Origin: Alphaproteobacteria bacterium
Lineage (GTDB): Bacteria > Pseudomonadota > Alphaproteobacteria > GCA-002720895
Direction: 5' to 3'
Length of the DNA: 49,135 nt
Assembly (NCBI GenBank): GCA_022450705.1
Contig: JAKUPP010000004.1
Span: 1 to 49,135 of the forward strand
A model generated the notes under the pieces. That model was not told where the DNA came from and ran no database searches. It saw only the letters and a program-made list of their open reading frames with translations. Positions 106 through 7,887 of the stretch are shown piece by piece; the first letter of the stretch is position 1; each line of letters starts with the position of its first letter. A program made the position numbers and the translations under genes.

Positions 106-1245
106 ATGATATCTGCAAATTTTTTAATAAATCAATTATCTAAATATAAGTTTAATTTCTTTACAGGTGTCCCTTGCTCTCATTTAACTTCAGTAATTAA
201 TGGAGTTATAAACTCAAGAAAAATAAAATACATTGGTGCAACTAGTGAAGGAGAAGCAGTTGGAATTGCGTCGGGTGCTTGGTTAGCTGGAAAAAAAAGC
301 GTTGTTATGATACAAAACTCAGGTTTAGGTAATACAATTAACCCTTTAACATCTCTAAATCATACTTTTAAGATTCCAATTCTATTAATTACAACATGGA
401 GAGGTGAACCTAAAATAAATGATGAACCGCAACATGAATTAATGGGTAAAATTACAAGAAATATTCTTAGATTAATAAAAATTAAAAATGAAATATTCCC
501 AATAAAGGAAAATAATCTTAAAAAAGTGCTTCTTAAAATTAATAATTCAATAAATAAAACATCGCTACCTTATGCTTTGGTAATGAGAAAAGAAACTATT
601 AAAAAAGAAAAGTTAAAACAAAAAAAAATTCTTATTAAAAAAAAAAATAAAGCATTAATTTTTTATAAAAAAAATAAAATACCTTCTAGGTTTAAGGTTT
701 TAGAGAATTTAAATAAAAATATTGATAATAAAGTAGGAGTTATTGCAACAACAGGAAAGACTGGAAGAGAATTATTTAGTTTAAATGATTGTGAGAATTT
801 TTTTTATCAGGTTGGTTCTATGGGTTGTGCAAGTGCTATTTCTTTAGGTGTTGCACTAAATACAAAAAAAAAAATTATAGTATTAGATGGTGATGGTTCA
901 CTACTGATGAAAATGGGAAATATGTCAACAATTGGAGCTAATCAACCAAAGAACTTAATTCACATATTACTTGATAACAATGTTCATGATTCAACTGGTC
1001 AACAATTAACAAATGCTTCAAATGTAAATTTTGCTAATATTGCAATAAATTGTGGTTACAAAGAATCTTATTCTACAGATAACACAAATGATTTTTCAAA
1101 AATTATAAAAAATAAATTAAAAAATACAAATGGCCCAATTTTTATTCATATCAAAATTCAAAAAGGATCTGTTCAAAACTTAGGCAGACCTACAATACAT
1201 CCTAAAGATGTGGCTATAAGGTTTAAAAATTTTTTAAAAAATTAA
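106..1245 (+). CDS. aepY: phosphonopyruvate decarboxylase (thiamine diphosphate-dependent)
   Basis: Converts phosphonopyruvate to phosphonoacetaldehyde and CO2. This irreversible step pulls the unfavourable PEP mutase reaction forward. The 379-aa protein has the two halves of a ThDP enzyme: an N-terminal pyrimidine-binding half with the activating glutamate in ATSEGEA (about E48), and a C-terminal pyrophosphate half with GDGS at about 262 followed by DNN at 290-292, the classical ThDP/Mg motif. Length and the GVPCSHL start fit the phosphonopyruvate decarboxylase family rather than acetolactate synthases, which are about 550 aa. A very lysine-rich linker (about 163-190) joins the halves. The gene converges on the dioxygenase gene, and the two stop codons share the tetranucleotide TTAA. 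PEP mutase and an AEP transaminase nearby support the role. Confidence 0.93.
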   Translation: MISANFLINQLSKYKFNFFTGVPCSHLTSVINGVINSRKIKYIGATSEGEAVGIASGAWLAGKKSVVMIQNSGLGNTINPLTSLNHTFKIPILLITTWRGEPKINDEPQHELMGKITRNILRLIKIKNEIFPIKENNLKKVLLKINNSINKTSLPYALVMRKETIKKEKLKQKKILIKKKNKALIFYKKNKIPSRFKVLENLNKNIDNKVGVIATTGKTGRELFSLNDCENFFYQVGSMGCASAISLGVALNTKKKIIVLDGDGSLLMKMGNMSTIGANQPKNLIHILLDNNVHDSTGQQLTNASNVNFANIAINCGYKESYSTDNTNDFSKIIKNKLKNTNGPIFIHIKIQKGSVQNLGRPTIHPKDVAIRFKNFLKN

Positions 1246-1994
1246 ACTTTAAATTTATAATCTTTATTTGGATCTCTATCTATATCAGGTGGGTAGTTCT
1301 TATACTTATCATTATAATACTTTTCTCTAAAATTACCGTCAGCTAATTTGTTATATGTTAAATATAAAATTCTTCTTGATTTACTTGTTAGATTTGGTTC
1401 AGATCTATGTGGAGCATAACAATCAAAAAAGACAGCGTCTCCTGGTTTGGTTTCAATTGGAATAAATTTCATATTTTTCATATCTTCGTCTGATAACGGT
1501 TTCCATAGTTTTCCAATAAGACCAGATTTGTTATGACCTGGAGCAAATTCTAGGCATCCATTTTGTACCGTTGATTCATCAACGCTAACCATAGCAGTTA
1601 AATAAAATTTTGCATAATCATCCCAACCTGCTTGGGAGTCTTGATGCGGAGAAAAACCTGATCCTCCAGGCATTTTAAAATTAATTTTATCCTTAAATAA
1701 AACTCCCTCTTCTCCTAAACAATCATTTACACATTCCATAATTCTGCTTTTAGTACATAGCTCATGAAAACCTTTGTGAGATTTACAAAAATTTTCTATT
1801 CTTGCTAAAACTTTTTTATTTTCTTCAATCTCACTTTTTTCAAAATATTTCCATTCTTTTCCTGAAATTTCCGGAGAATTCTGTAGTTCTTCGGTATATT
1901 CTAAAATTTCTTTTATTTCAGAATTATTAAATAATCCTGGTACTAAAACAAAACCATCTGTTTTAAATTTTTTGATTTGATCATCATTTAACAT
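1242..1994 (-). CDS. PhyH/PhnY-like Fe(II)/2-oxoglutarate dioxygenase, putative AEP 1-hydroxylase
   Basis: A 250-aa phytanoyl-CoA dioxygenase-family protein. The metal-binding triad is visible as HQD (H117, D119) and a distal histidine in APHRSEP (H196), with SRR (207-208) supplying the likely 2-oxoglutarate-binding arginine. The stretches KINFKMPGG and HQDSQAGW resemble my recollection of PhnY, which hydroxylates 2-aminoethylphosphonate at C1. No PhnZ-type HD oxygenase, which would cleave that product, is in the window. Here it sits 21 nt downstream of the AEP transaminase on the same strand, inside a biosynthetic cluster, so I infer tailoring of AEP (or an AEP lipid) to 1-hydroxy-AEP rather than breakdown. 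The PhyH fold and cofactor use are well supported; the substrate is inference. Confidence 0.8.
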   Translation of the reverse strand: MLNDDQIKKFKTDGFVLVPGLFNNSEIKEILEYTEELQNSPEISGKEWKYFEKSEIEENKKVLARIENFCKSHKGFHELCTKSRIMECVNDCLGEEGVLFKDKINFKMPGGSGFSPHQDSQAGWDDYAKFYLTAMVSVDESTVQNGCLEFAPGHNKSGLIGKLWKPLSDEDMKNMKFIPIETKPGDAVFFDCYAPHRSEPNLTSKSRRILYLTYNKLADGNFREKYYNDKYKNYPPDIDRDPNKDYKFKV

Positions 1995-2015: not shown

Positions 2016-3131
2016 TTAATTTGATAAATATTTAATACGTTTTTTTAAAATAATCTTTTTTATTGCTGATAAAAGCATTTTTATATGCTTACTATGAATA
2101 TTACCAATACATCCAATTCTAAACGTTTTTTGAGAAGTTATACTTCCAGGATAAATCACAAACCCTCGTTTGCTTAAATTAGTATATAAAAAATTAAAAT
2201 CTAAGTTTTTAGGAATATTAAAACTTACTATGATTGGTGAATGTAGATTTTCATTAAGATAACAATTAAAACCCATTTTTTTCATACCAGATAAAAGAGC
2301 AAAATAATTTTTTTTATATCTTTTATTTCTATTAATTATTCCACCTTCATTCTTTAGTTGGTTTAAAGAAGATGATAGAGCAACTATTGCTTGAATTGGT
2401 GGCGTAAAGCGCCATTGGTTATTTTTTTGAAATCCCTTCCACTGTTCATATAAATCTAAAGATAATGTATTAGCATTATTTTTTGATTTTGATAAAGAAT
2501 TTTTCTTTATTATAGAAAAAGAGAATCCTGGTATTCCTTCTAAACATTTATTTGCAGAACTTACTAACGTATCAATGTTATTTTTTTTTATATTTATACT
2601 TATTCCGCCAAATGAGCTCATAGCATCAACAATTAATTTTTTTTTGAATTTTTTACATAATAGAGATATTTCATTTAATGGATTTAAAATTCCACTACTT
2701 GTCTCACAATGTACTAAGGCTACGTGTGAAATAGATTTGTTCTTATATAAAATTTTTTTAATTTTATCGATAGGCATTGATGAATTTTCATTAAATTTTA
2801 AAGGTATAAATTTTTTTCCAATTTTTTTACAAATATTAATAATTCTATTTCCATAAACGCCATTACTAAGAATTAAAATTTTAGATTTATAATTAAGAAG
2901 TGTGCTAAAAGTAGCCTCTAGACCAAAAGTTCCACTTCCTTGAATCGGTAAACATACATATCCTTTACTTGCATTTCCTAACTTTAATAGCTGTGACATC
3001 AGTCTTTTATTGATTCTAATAAAATCATCATCTCTTGATCCTAAATCTATAAGTGTGTTTTTTTTTGTTATATCCGAAGTATTAAGCGGACCAGGCGTAA
3101 AAAGTAATTTTTTTTTAATTTTTTTTGACAT
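2016..3131 (-). CDS. phnW: 2-aminoethylphosphonate-pyruvate transaminase-like class V aminotransferase
   Basis: A PLP enzyme of 371 aa related to PhnW. In this context it most likely aminates phosphonoacetaldehyde to 2-aminoethylphosphonate, the reverse of the catabolic direction. Diagnostic pieces are LFTPGPLNTS at the start, the DLGSRDDDF segment (29-37), GSGTFGLEA (65-73), the PLP-nitrogen aspartate in VDAMSSFGG (D169) and the PLP lysine in SSANKCLEG (K195). The length matches the family (about 365 aa). It is the first gene of a two-gene unit with the dioxygenase and is divergent from the flippase-like gene. The 73-bp divergent region contains a perfect palindrome CTCTATAGAG (3157-3166). 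A related small-molecule transaminase such as alanine-glyoxylate transaminase is the alternative, but the neighbours argue against it. Confidence 0.88.
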   Translation of the reverse strand: MSKKIKKKLLFTPGPLNTSDITKKNTLIDLGSRDDDFIRINKRLMSQLLKLGNASKGYVCLPIQGSGTFGLEATFSTLLNYKSKILILSNGVYGNRIINICKKIGKKFIPLKFNENSSMPIDKIKKILYKNKSISHVALVHCETSSGILNPLNEISLLCKKFKKKLIVDAMSSFGGISINIKKNNIDTLVSSANKCLEGIPGFSFSIIKKNSLSKSKNNANTLSLDLYEQWKGFQKNNQWRFTPPIQAIVALSSSLNQLKNEGGIINRNKRYKKNYFALLSGMKKMGFNCYLNENLHSPIIVSFNIPKNLDFNFLYTNLSKRGFVIYPGSITSQKTFRIGCIGNIHSKHIKMLLSAIKKIILKKRIKYLSN

Positions 3132-3204: not shown

Positions 3205-4188
3205 TTGTCTAAATTTAAGTTTCTTTATCTAATCTTTGGTATAGCACTCCTTGTTTTTATATTTAATAAAGTTGATTTTAATTCTTTTTTAAATGAATTA
3301 AACAAACTAAGATTTAGTTTCTTTGCTATCCTCATTATTTATTTTGTTGGATTTATTTTAGATAGTTACTCATGGCAATTATGTATAGAAAATTTAGTTA
3401 AAACAAAACTAAAACTCCATCAAATATTTAAAATTAGAATTATAGGAGAAGCATTTAATTATATATTTTTTCAAGTAGGAGGAGAACCTGTAAAAGCATT
3501 TTTATTAAAAAATAATTATGGAATTAAATATAAATCTTCGATTGGTTCATTAATACTAGCAAAAACAATTATTCTTTTCGCTCTTATAATTTTTTGTTTT
3601 GTAGGTCTAGTTAGCATCTTTTACACAAATAAATTTGGAGATAACTTTGAAAAAGCTTCTTTAATAGGTTTTGTTTTATTTACAACGTTAATATCTTTAT
3701 TTTTTATAGTTCAAAGATATAAATTAACATCAAAATTCCATAATATTTTTAAAAATAAATTATCAAAAAAATTTAATAACTTTTTTAAACATTTACAAGA
3801 AACAGAGCATAAAATTGCTGATTTTTATAAAAAAACAAAAAAAGATTTTTTTAAAATTTTATTTTTAAATTTAAGTAATTGGTTTTTTGGTGCTCTTGAA
3901 TTATATGCAATTTTTTATCTTTTAAATGAAAAAATTACTTTCTTAGAGGCAGTAGCAATTGAAACTCTTGTTCAATTAGTAAGAGCAATGCTTTTCTTTA
4001 TACCTTCAAATTTAGGAACTCAAGAGGGTGTTTTTGTTTTAGCTGTAAATGTATTAAAAGATTCAACGCCTTTAGGATTGGCTGTTGCTATAATTAGAAG
4101 GCTAAGAGAGGTTATATGGATAAGTATAGGTTTAATTTTAGGATTTAATCAAAAAATAGATTTTAAGGAAATTAAAAAAAGATTATAG
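3205..4188 (+). CDS. lysylphosphatidylglycerol synthase TM region/UPF0104-family membrane protein, possible lipid flippase
   Basis: A 327-aa polytopic membrane protein with about eight hydrophobic segments. The pattern SYSWQLCIENL, GEAFNYIFFQVGGEPVKAF and SNLGTQEGVFVL is typical of the LPG_synthase_TM (UPF0104/AglD-like) superfamily. It lacks the cytoplasmic aminoacyl-transferase domain of MprF, so it is probably a transporter or flippase rather than a lysyl transferase. The start is TTG with AGGA nine bases upstream. The stop overlaps that of the convergent CDP-alcohol phosphatidyltransferase by 6 nt. In a cluster that appears to build a phosphonate-headgroup lipid, translocation of the product across the inner membrane is a reasonable role, but this is inference from context. 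Confidence 0.75.
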   Translation: MSKFKFLYLIFGIALLVFIFNKVDFNSFLNELNKLRFSFFAILIIYFVGFILDSYSWQLCIENLVKTKLKLHQIFKIRIIGEAFNYIFFQVGGEPVKAFLLKNNYGIKYKSSIGSLILAKTIILFALIIFCFVGLVSIFYTNKFGDNFEKASLIGFVLFTTLISLFFIVQRYKLTSKFHNIFKNKLSKKFNNFFKHLQETEHKIADFYKKTKKDFFKILFLNLSNWFFGALELYAIFYLLNEKITFLEAVAIETLVQLVRAMLFFIPSNLGTQEGVFVLAVNVLKDSTPLGLAVAIIRRLREVIWISIGLILGFNQKIDFKEIKKRL

Positions 4189-4800
4189 CTTTTTAGTTTT
4201 ATATAAAAATATAAAAATTGTTATAAATAAAAAGATTGGTGTGCCAATAAAAGAGTAAAATAAAAAAACATCAATCTTATTTAAAAAAGTCACTGGTATT
4301 ACAATATATATTATATCTTCATGCTCAAAACCTAATATATTACTTTGCTCAATCGCTTTCCCTCCTTTTATTCTTTCTAAATAAAATCTAATAGACATTA
4401 TTAAAAAAACACATGTAGCAGAAACGCAACCGTAACTCAGTCCAATATTAAAATTTTTATCTGAATAAATTCCAAGTCCAATAAATAAAAAAATGTATGA
4501 TAAACAAACTCCTACATGATCTAAGTAATGACCAAATGTGGATGTTTTATTAAGTTTTCTAGCAACTTGGCCGTCAACATGGTCAAAACATGCAGCAACG
4601 AAAAAAAATAATGAGGCTATTTTCGCGTAAAACAAATTTCCGAGTGTGTAAAAAAAGAATGCAAATATTCCAAATAAAATTCCGATAAGTGTAACTATAT
4701 TTGGATGAACATTAAAAAAAATAAAAGGTTTAGAAATGATTACAGCTATTCTTTGATCCCATGGAGAAGAAAAAGACAATTTTTTTAAGAAATTATTCAT
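4183..4800 (-). CDS. CDP-alcohol phosphatidyltransferase family protein (copy 1, atypical catalytic motif)
   Basis: A 205-aa integral membrane enzyme of the family that transfers a phospho- or phosphono-alcohol from a CMP-activated donor to a hydroxyl acceptor. The family signature D-x2-DG-x2-AR-x8-G-x3-D-x3-D is present from D73 (DHVDGQVARKL) through G90 and D94, but the last position, normally the catalytic-base aspartate, is valine (V98; codon GTT). About six membrane segments are visible, as expected. Its start overlaps the stop of the upstream nucleotidyltransferase by 8 nt, so the two are probably translationally coupled and act as an activate-and-transfer pair. The missing aspartate could mean altered chemistry or loss of activity. 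The headgroup substrate is inferred to be CMP-AEP or a relative. Confidence 0.87.
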   Translation of the reverse strand: MNNFLKKLSFSSPWDQRIAVIISKPFIFFNVHPNIVTLIGILFGIFAFFFYTLGNLFYAKIASLFFFVAACFDHVDGQVARKLNKTSTFGHYLDHVGVCLSYIFLFIGLGIYSDKNFNIGLSYGCVSATCVFLIMSIRFYLERIKGGKAIEQSNILGFEHEDIIYIVIPVTFLNKIDVFLFYSFIGTPIFLFITIFIFLYKTKKL

Positions 4801-5518
4801 CTATTTTTTTTAAAATATTTTTTTTAGCTAAGTCTAAATCTTTTTTAAAATCAATTTCGATCCAAGGAAGATTATTTATATGTTCATACTCCATTAAAAA
4901 TTTTTTTTCTTTAATTAATTTTTGAATTGCATCTTCATACATTGCTTTTTTATTCTTTGCCTTTATTTTTTTAGATTCATTTAATAATTTAATTGATGTT
5001 TTTTTTGAAAATTTAAAAAAACCAACAGACTCTCCTTGGAAATCAAAATTATTATCAACGTTTTTTCCAAAATCATAAATTTTATTATTTTTAATACAAA
5101 CTTTTACAGGCTCTTCTCCAGATTCAAAATGCTTATCAATTAAAAGTGTATCTTTTTTTTTTGTATCAATTAATTTTTTTAAAATTTTTTTATCATATAA
5201 AACATCTCCATCCATTAAAATTAACTCTCCTCTTTCATAAAAGAAACTGCTAGCACATACTAAAGAAACTATACTTCCTAATTTATATTTTGGATTTTTA
5301 ATGATCTTTATTTTTTTTTTCTTATCTATTTCTTTGATACATTTAATTAAGTACTGTGATTTATAACCTACAACAATTCCTATTTTTTTTACTCCCAAAC
5401 TTAAAAGATTGTCATAGTGTCTTTCGAGTAAACTTCTATTTCCAATTCTTAATAAGATTTTTGGAAGACTTACTTTTAATCTTTTACCAATTCCTGCTGC
5501 GAGTATTAATGCTTTCAT
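4793..5518 (-). CDS. MobA/LicC-type nucleotidyltransferase, putative phosphonate cytidylyltransferase
   Basis: A 241-aa NTP-transferase. The nucleotide-binding loop LAAGIGKRL begins at residue 6, a PK pair follows (SLPKILL), the metal-binding aspartates are in LMDGDVLYD (about residues 101-109), and the C-terminal PWIEIDFKKDLDLA is typical of the LicC/PntC-like group that activates phosphocholine, inositol phosphate or aminoethylphosphonate with CTP. It is first in a two-gene unit with CDP-alcohol phosphatidyltransferase copy 1. It is divergent from the PEP mutase gene, with 76 bp between them. It is separate from, and not identical to, the nucleotidyltransferase domain fused to PEP mutase, so the cluster carries two activating enzymes. 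Activation of a phosphonate is inferred from context; inositol-1-phosphate is an alternative substrate. Confidence 0.8.
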   Translation of the reverse strand: MKALILAAGIGKRLKVSLPKILLRIGNRSLLERHYDNLLSLGVKKIGIVVGYKSQYLIKCIKEIDKKKKIKIIKNPKYKLGSIVSLVCASSFFYERGELILMDGDVLYDKKILKKLIDTKKKDTLLIDKHFESGEEPVKVCIKNNKIYDFGKNVDNNFDFQGESVGFFKFSKKTSIKLLNESKKIKAKNKKAMYEDAIQKLIKEKKFLMEYEHINNLPWIEIDFKKDLDLAKKNILKKIDE

Positions 5519-5546
5519 TTATATTTAAAAATTATAAACAATAATT

Positions 5547-5564
5547 ATGTCATATATTTGTAAT
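5547..5564 (+). promoter_or_regulatory. candidate Pho box in front of the PEP mutase gene
   Basis: ATGTCATATATTTGTAAT matches the enterobacterial Pho-box consensus CTGTCATAWAWCTGTMAY at 16 of 18 positions. The two seven-base half-sites, ATGTCAT and TTGTAAT, are spaced by 4 nt, giving the diagnostic 11-bp period. It ends 30 nt before the pepM start codon, in the divergent region shared with the separate nucleotidyltransferase gene. Several weak -10 candidates follow (TATATT at 5570, TACAAT at 5581). AT-rich intergenic DNA makes chance partial matches plausible. Confidence 0.5.
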
Positions 5565-5582
5565 ATTTTTATATTTGTAATA
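5554..5582 (+). repeat. two 12-bp direct repeats, 17-bp period
   Basis: ATATTTGTAATA occurs at 5554-5565 and again at 5571-5582, both identical, immediately upstream of the PEP mutase start. The first copy overlaps the right half of the candidate Pho box. The duplication could provide two operator half-sites or could simply be a small tandem duplication. Confidence 0.6.
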
Positions 5583-5594
5583 CAATTCTAAGTA

Positions 5595-7268
5595 ATGGCA
5601 ATAATACATGCAAAAGACATTGGTATTAGAAAAATATCTAAATCACAACTTTTAAAAAAAGAACTTAATAGTAAAGAACTATCATTTTTAATGGAAGCCC
5701 ATAATGGTTTGACTGCAAAAATAGTCGAGACAAGTGGTTTCAAAGGAATATGGGCGTCTGGATTATCTATATCAACTGCCCTTGGTGTAAGAGATAGTAA
5801 CGAAGCTTCATGGACACAAATATTGGATGTTTTAGAATTTATGTCTGATGCAACAACAATACCAATACTAGTTGATGGAGATACTGGTTATGGGAATTTT
5901 AACAATTTTAGAAGACTTGTTTCAAAACTATGTCAAAGAAAAATTGCTGGTGTCTGTATTGAAGATAAACAATATCCTAAATCAAATTCTTTTGTTAAAA
6001 AATATCAAAAATTAGCTGATATAGATGAATTTTGTGGAAAAATACAAGCGGGTAAAGACATGCAAGATGATGATAATTTCTCTATTGTTGCAAGAGTAGA
6101 GGCTTTAATAGCTGGTTGGGGAATTGGAGAAGCTATCAAAAGAGCAGAGGCATATTGTAAAGCTGGCGCTGATGCGATACTTATACATTCAAGCAAAGAT
6201 AATGCGAATGAAATATTAAAATTTAAAAAAGAATGGGGGAATAAATCTCCTGTAATTATTATTCCAACTACTTATCATAAAACTCCGACAAATATTTTTA
6301 AAAAAGCTGGTTTTTCTACTGTTATTTGGGCCAACCATTCTTTAAGAGCTTCAATTAAAGCAATTCAAGATGTAACAAATCATTTAATCAAAAAAGAAAG
6401 TATTAAAGGTTTGGAAAATAAAATATCAAGTTTAAATGAGGTTTTTGAATTAGCAGGAAATGATGAATTATATGAAGCTGAAAAAAAATACTTATTAGAA
6501 AAAAAGAATTATAATGCAATTGTTTTAGCTGCATCTAGAGGTCATCAACTTAAACATTTAACTAAAAACAAACCTAAATGTATGCTTGATATTCAAGGAA
6601 AACCTCTTTTAGAAAGACTAACTTCAACATTGAAAAAAGATAATATTGGGAAAATCTCAATAGTTTCTGGATACAAAAATAATGTAATTGAAAATAATAA
6701 TAATCTATCAAATCTAAATATTATTCAAAATAAAGATCATGCTAAAACTGGTGAGCTTTTCTCACTTAATAAATCTGCAGATGAAATAAAAGATGATTGT
6801 ATTGTAACCTATGGTGATATAGTTTTTAGAAAATATATTTTAGATGCATTATTATCTACTAAAGGAGAAATTGTAATAGTAGTTGATGCTCTTCTTAAAA
6901 ATAAAGGAAAAAAGTCCCAAAAAGATCTTGTGATTTGTGATAGAGAATTTACTGGAAACTATCTACTTGAATCTAAACCAGCAATTTTAAAATCGGTGCA
7001 TAATGAATTAAAGAAAAAAATTACTGGTCAATGGATTGGTTTATTAAAAACAAACTCAAAAGGATCAAAAATATTAAGAAATCAAATTCATGCTTTAAGT
7101 AAAAACAAAAACTTTAAAAATTTAGCAATGCCAGATTTATTTAATAATTTAATAAAAAATAAAATTAAAATTAATGTTCTTTATATAGCTGGGCAATGGT
7201 TGGATGTAAATGATGCTTTTGATTTAGCTGAAGCTAGAAAAGTATCTTGGGCAAAAAGCTTTAATTAG
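5595..7268 (+). CDS. aepX: bifunctional phosphoenolpyruvate mutase / nucleotidyltransferase fusion
   Basis: Residues 1 to about 290 form an isocitrate-lyase-superfamily barrel with the PEP mutase signature EDK-x5-NS ([10 protein letters not shown], 123-132) and the metal-binding VDGDTGYG (93-100). This domain rearranges PEP to phosphonopyruvate and creates the C-P bond. From about residue 305 a second domain begins with [19 protein letters not shown], a nucleotidyltransferase loop in which the usual GxG is changed to SRG, followed by YGDIVFRK with a probable metal aspartate and a C-terminal [11 protein letters not shown]. PepM-cytidylyltransferase fusions are known, and the second domain is understood to activate AEP as CMP-AEP. 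At 557 aa both domains are full length. The stop overlaps that of CDP-alcohol phosphatidyltransferase copy 2 by 8 nt. It is the defining gene of the cluster. Confidence 0.94.
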
Positions 7269-7887
7269 TTGACTTTACAAATCTTTTCAAATTATAAATA
7301 ACAAAAACAACTGAACCAATTGAAGCTATCAGAAAAAAGAAATTAATAAATCCAATCCAAGTAATTGGTCCAATTAAATATACGCCATCTTCTAATGCTA
7401 CTTTGTCTGTTTCTGGAAAACCATAAAAATCCTTACTAGTTCTAAATTTATGAATAATTCCTAAAAAAGTATTAAAAATAGATGCAATAATAGCTGAAAA
7501 TAATAAATAGTTCTGTAAATCGAAATCTACAATACTAAAAAACTTAATTTCAAAAGTTCCGGGCGGTATACCAGCTGAAATGCCGACAAACATCAATATA
7601 TATGTTGCGGTATCAACAAAACTATCATAATACCATCCAAATTTACTTTCTTTTTTTAACTCTCTTGCTAACTGCCCATCTACATGATCTAAAAATTTAG
7701 AAAAAATAAATAAAATAGACCCAATAACAGAAAAGACATATATACCAAAACTAAAAAATACAGCAGCTAATGCTGCTAACAAAAGACTAAATGTGGATAC
7801 TTGATTGGGAGTTATAGAAGTTTGTGCTATATATTTAACAACTTTTTCTGCAATCTTTTCATCTATCTTTTTTCTATATTTAAACAT
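7261..7887 (-). CDS. CDP-alcohol phosphatidyltransferase family protein (copy 2, intact motif)
   Basis: A 208-aa membrane enzyme of the same family as the copy at 4183-4800. Here the full signature is kept: D67, D70-G71, A74-R75, G84, D88 and the final catalytic D92 ([20 protein letters not shown], then YDSFVD). Hydrophobic segments span most of the rest. Its probable donor is the CMP-activated phosphonate made by the convergent PepM fusion, and the acceptor would be diacylglycerol, a ceramide-like lipid or another membrane alcohol. The two copies share the DHVDGQ core but otherwise differ greatly, so they are not a recent duplication. The mix of one intact and one atypical copy suggests a division of labour. 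Substrate assignment is inference. Confidence 0.88.

Follow-up and report, generated by a model that had tools for sequence, protein, structure and literature searches.

A predicted Pho box upstream of pepM suggests phosphate control of phosphonate synthesis in an uncultured marine alphaproteobacterium

Background

In the sea, phosphonates make up a large reservoir of phosphorus in reduced form and give rise to methane, and why cells in phosphate-poor water invest phosphorus in them is a puzzle. A Pho box in front of pepM would provide a concrete link between phosphonate synthesis and phosphate shortage. The locus described here raises the question whether such a box is present and, if so, whether PhoB turns the gene on or off. 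A rise of pepM expression on starvation would place phosphonate synthesis within the phosphate-stress response, and a fall would mean that the cells economize. The window, i.e., the whole stretch of 49,135 nucleotides that was analyzed, corresponds to contig C36 of a MAG (989 kb, 79% complete) that represents a small uncultured marine bacterium.

The phosphonate gene neighborhood

The PepM protein, the phosphonopyruvate decarboxylase and the 2-aminoethylphosphonate aminotransferase encoded in the window all score above the curated cut-offs of the respective models (Table 1), and therefore the prediction of a 2-aminoethylphosphonate synthesis cluster is well supported. The nucleotidyltransferases, one fused to PEP mutase and one separate, together with the CDP-alcohol phosphotransferases suggest nucleotide activation followed by transfer to a lipid or glycan, and the formation of a C-P head group, as read from the two phosphotransferases, appears plausible. 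The pepM gene is flanked by two different CDP-alcohol phosphotransferases and two nucleotidyltransferase domains, which points to two distinct transfer reactions involving head groups or glycans. An Rfam search of the window yields no matches.

Table 1. Predicted genes and promoter elements of the pepM locus (positions in the window)
Feature	Coordinates	Strand	Details
Phosphonopyruvate decarboxylase (ppd)	106..1245	+	TIGR03297, 424.3 bits (cut-off 312.5)
PhyH-family dioxygenase, distant relative of phosphonate hydroxylases	1242..1994	-	far below NF052437 cut-off
2-aminoethylphosphonate aminotransferase (phnW type)	2016..3131	-	TIGR02326, 423.3 bits (cut-off 400.8)
LPG_synthase_TM-family membrane protein	3205..4188	+	PF03706
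CDP-alcohol phosphotransferase	4183..4800	-	PF01066
MobA-like nucleotidyltransferase, divergent from pepM	4793..5518	-	PF12804
Candidate -10 of the divergent nucleotidyltransferase gene, TATAAT	5531..5536	-	10 bp from box edge
Predicted Pho box, ATGTCATATATTTGTAAT	5547..5564	+	half-sites ATGTCAT / TTGTAAT, 11-bp period
Candidate pepM -10, TGTAAT	5576..5581	+	11 bp after box; by analogy with pstC promoters
Alternative pepM -10, TACAAT	5581..5586	+	16 bp after box; TATAAT in sister MAGs
pepM, PEP mutase fused to nucleotidyltransferase domain	5595..7268	+	TIGR02320, 374.9 bits (cut-off 319.55)
Second CDP-alcohol phosphotransferase	7261..7887	-	PF01066

The predicted Pho box and its rarity

The sequence ATGTCATATATTTGTAAT agrees with the Escherichia coli Pho-box consensus CTGTCATAWAWCTGTMAY at 16 of its 18 positions, and its half-sites, TGTCAT (5548) and TGTAAT (5559), follow each other at a distance of 11 bp, exactly as the first-pass annotation had described it. 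The box is located 31 bp upstream of pepM, within the 76-bp gap (5519-5594) between this gene and the divergent nucleotidyltransferase gene. In Markov-simulated intergenic sequence, the expected number of matches with at most two mismatches in such a gap is about 3e-5 on one strand, an order-of-magnitude value that derives from a single simulated match in 2 Mb.

A scan of the 989-kb assembly with the E. coli consensus, rather than with a motif fitted to the MAG's own genome, identifies only two places with two or fewer mismatches, namely the pepM site and the pstS promoter on contig C58 (ATGTCATAAAACTGTAAT, one mismatch), so that pepM shares its motif with pstS. Many equally good matches in unrelated AT-rich intergenic regions, the refuting outcome named in the first-pass annotation, are absent from the assembly: the remaining four places, with three mismatches each, are the pstC promoter on contig C40 and three sites within coding genes. 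The raw match count at three mismatches is not enriched. With up to three mismatches, the true pattern yields 6 matches in this genome compared to 7 for the reversed pattern, and in six genomes (family and order together) the totals of 47 and 39, respectively, are near chance. The weight of the observation lies in the top two matches, in placement and in conservation. When only intergenic, correctly oriented matches less than 100 bp from a gene are considered, the six genomes contain five upstream of pstS, four upstream of pepM, two upstream of pstC, and one each upstream of a porin-like and a metB-like gene.

A matrix trained on ten pst, phoR-operon and porin sites of the family (pepM excluded; two of the ten from C40) assigns the pepM box a score of 18.79, as high as those of training sites (18.2-23.8), compared to 10.44 for the second-best place in the window. 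The expected number of scores of 18.79 or higher in the gap does not exceed 1.2e-4, even when the background is given the composition of the gap itself.

Promoter geometry

In E. coli, the Pho box lies about 10-11 bp upstream of the -10 element. The first candidate pepM -10, TGTAAT (TTTAAT in sister MAGs), fits this expected spacing, whereas TACAAT, or TATAAT in the sister MAGs, is the better hexamer. In pstC promoters, the -10 follows the box after 10 bp (TAAAAT in G001, TAACAT in G004 and TACATT in G005), and the 11-bp spacing of the first candidate resembles this arrangement. The 16-bp spacing of TACAAT was initially likened to the geometry of pstS promoters (17 bp), but the 10-11 bp reading fits pstC better; both candidates are retained. 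Either of them would leave a very short leader.

Under the TACAAT alternative, the second half-site at the same time forms a -35 hexamer, TTGTAA, located 17 bp before the -10, and two other readings of the gap take support from this overlap. The first holds that the box is a chance match in an AT-rich constitutive promoter, with no involvement of PhoB. The near-control totals at three mismatches are compatible with it; the expectation of about 1e-4 or fewer such matches in the gap and the fact that pstS is the only other place in the assembly with a comparable match argue against it. The second reading is that PhoB does bind, but as a repressor occluding this -35, with phosphonate synthesis shut off and phosphorus saved when phosphate is scarce; against it, the pepM box-to--10 spacing is like the one found at pstC, where activation is expected.

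The box had been proposed to serve both divergent genes. This holds up toward pepM and is only possible on the nucleotidyltransferase side. On the side of the nucleotidyltransferase gene, a -10 element is found at a distance of exactly 10 bp from the box (TATAAT in this genome, TATAAA in MarineAlpha6_Bin4), as expected if a single box drives both pepM and the nucleotidyltransferase gene with its CDP-alcohol phosphotransferase neighbor. However, the direct repeat is oriented toward pepM and thus inverted relative to the divergent promoter, the minus strand of the gap contains no Pho-box match better than 6 mismatches, and the spacing is not kept in MarineAlpha6_Bin2. Such dual control, which would add to rather than compete with PhoB control of pepM, appears doubtful.

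Conservation in relatives

Among the named relatives with a pepM locus, the closest are MarineAlpha6_Bin4, Pelagibacteraceae SP38 and MarineAlpha6_Bin2; Bin4 and SP38 hardly differ and were counted as one lineage. In comparison with Bin4 and SP38, 17 of the 18 box positions are identical, in a stretch with 21 consecutive identical base pairs (P 0.007 for the run in a permutation test), compared to 42 of the remaining 58 positions of the gap; at fourfold-degenerate sites of pepM, the identity between the species is 53%. The use of the second half-site as a -35 could explain part of this conservation, but the sister MAGs also conserve the first half-site, where no -35 would lie, which argues against the constitutive-promoter reading.

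The pepM sites of the sister MAGs score 14.2 with the family matrix. In Bin2 (G005), which belongs to another genus, the aligned box position is degenerate (TTGTGTTGTATTTGCGAT), and a good match (TTGTCATATAATTGTTAC, score 15.8) is displaced and overlaps the -10 close to the start codon, so that the Bin2 evidence is ambiguous: the failure to keep the box in place favors a chance match, and the overlap with the -10 favors repression. All told, we consider a chance match very improbable.

No Pho box is detected upstream of pepM in 24 other alphaproteobacterial regions, where the best sequences have 5-9 mismatches; this survey covers mostly GC-rich regions, with SAR11 proper apparently unsampled. 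Thus, the Pho box on pepM looks lineage-specific rather than general among alphaproteobacterial pepM genes.

Phosphate regulators and other Pho boxes

The genome encodes a PhoR on contig C91 (272.9 bits to TIGR02966, below the cut-off of 334.2); its gene adjoins a ppk gene that is cut by the end of the locus near the contig end. The phoB gene is absent from the 79%-complete, 989-kb assembly and present in the genus members G001 and G004. In G001, the gene order is phoR, ppk, sixA, ppx, pstC, pstA, pstB, phoU, phoB, and in G004, pstC-pstA-pstB-phoU-phoB comes immediately after phoR; given this order, phoB is expected just past the end of C91. Accordingly, the presence of phoB, on which the first-pass annotation had made its proposal depend, is borne out for the genus, where the gene lies beside the pst block, and not for the incomplete MAG, whose contig breaks before this block. 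The PhoB proteins of the genus are 83-85% identical and have TIGR02154 as the best profile, with 291.1 and 289.2 bits, slightly below the cut-off of 296.2; their recognition-helix stretch RTVDVHIRRLRK presumably resembles that of E. coli PhoB.

Two regulators were considered as the organism's own PhoB and rejected as far from the genus PhoB, namely a ChvI-like protein (C18) and a second OmpR-family response regulator (C27:73-735, L003/L042). The latter is encoded beside a MarR-like gene and has a TAG in frame close to where the contig ends, possibly an assembly error or the mark of a pseudogene. The divergent phoR-pstS-pstC-pstA-pstB operon on C40 (L025), initially taken for the organism's own, was not relied on by itself: its PstC and PstA are only 48-53% identical, and its PhoR 34-36% identical, to the genus proteins. 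This operon, which shows a somewhat higher G+C content and its own 7-4-7 Pho-like repeats, may reside on a foreign contig or represent an acquired second Pst system.

On C58 (L026), a porin gene and pstS are convergent neighbors with a Pho box at each outer end (457-474, plus strand, and 2906-2923, minus strand), and the same arrangement is found in G001 (L089) and G004 (L093); this porin is likely phosphate-related. A second porin-pstS copy on C63 (L027), with a pstS 86.5% identical to the C58 copy and a porin box identical to that of G001, probably reflects strain heterogeneity or a relative's contig in the MAG. Upstream of the main pstS box, an additional half-site (TGTAATAAA/TGTCATAAA) recurs in five genomes (L004, L055, L057, L058, L080), which suggests tandem PhoB binding at pstS promoters; the pepM promoter lacks this extra half-site.

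Probable regulation of pepM by phosphate

Taken together, these observations are best compatible with 5547-5564 being a PhoB-binding Pho box, such that pepM quite probably belongs to the Pho regulon of this lineage and is activated along with phosphate uptake when phosphate is scarce. Phosphate control of pepM, as put forward in the first-pass annotation, is well supported because the motif is common to the pstS, pstC and porin promoters, the spacing and conservation agree, PhoR is encoded here and PhoB in the genus. Several facts count against this assignment: phoB is missing from the assembly, PhoR and the genus PhoB fall under the model cut-offs, the totals at three mismatches or fewer are near the reversed control, the box aligned in Bin2 is degenerate with its match displaced, and it runs against intuition that starving cells should spend phosphorus on phosphonates.

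Under the proposed mechanism, PhoR would phosphorylate PhoB when phosphate becomes scarce, and PhoB~P would occupy both half-sites, 11 bp apart, ahead of the pepM -10 and recruit RNA polymerase, as it is expected to do at pstS and pstC. Synthesis of 2-aminoethylphosphonate would thus be switched on at its committing step alongside phosphate uptake, perhaps such that a phosphonate surface or head group is kept supplied while phosphate esters shrink. We infer PhoB binding, activation over repression, and this purpose alike.

The likeness to pst promoters indicates that pepM is probably induced, not repressed, by phosphate limitation. Repression has the more economical logic, and Acker et al. 2022 (PMC8931226) explain the rarity of producers among Prochlorococcus of P-limited water by what the trait costs in phosphorus. 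Conversely, in the same work, phosphonate persists in P-starved Prochlorococcus SB, with the phosphonate to phosphate ratio changing from 0.72 to 2.4, driven by falling phosphate esters. Activation of pepM agrees with this behavior, by analogy with another organism and with a study that does not have regulation as its subject. We regard repression as improbable. The more specific notion of phosphonate synthesis as a starvation response, in which PhoB turns on pepM together with Pst, possibly through one bidirectional box shared with the head-group transfer genes, seems to have a slight edge over its negation. If it is true, phosphonates are made at phosphate scarcity and not stored at plenty; the storage role suggested in the first-pass annotation is without support here.

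Comparison with known systems

The pepM box resembles the boxes of the E. coli Pho regulon (pstS, phoA, phn) in being an 18-bp direct repeat of two half-sites with an 11-bp period. Unlike the E. coli consensus, it has A for C at position 1 and T for C at position 12, and unlike the E. coli boxes, it precedes a gene for phosphonate synthesis rather than for uptake or breakdown. In marine heterotrophs, predicted Pho boxes precede the plcP lipid-remodelling genes (PMC4796936). The pepM box is similar in being a predicted PhoB site that would place a surface- or lipid-related pathway of a marine bacterium under phosphate control; the difference is that, with plcP, P-free lipids replace phospholipids and phosphorus is saved, whereas the pepM product contains phosphorus. 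The pathway itself, pepM-based phosphonate synthesis in a streamlined marine bacterium, is like that of the Prochlorococcus and SAR11 pepM clusters (PMC8931226). Unlike the present case, the text on those clusters mentions neither PhoB, the Pho regulon nor regulation and describes no Pho box. A literature search combining pepM, phosphonate biosynthesis and the Pho box found no precedent within its coverage, which leaves out most subscription papers. A Pho box upstream of pepM could serve as a sequence mark for Pho-controlled phosphonate producers in metagenomes and metatranscriptomes. The Pho box is an element of a known kind, and what is new is its use on phosphonate synthesis.
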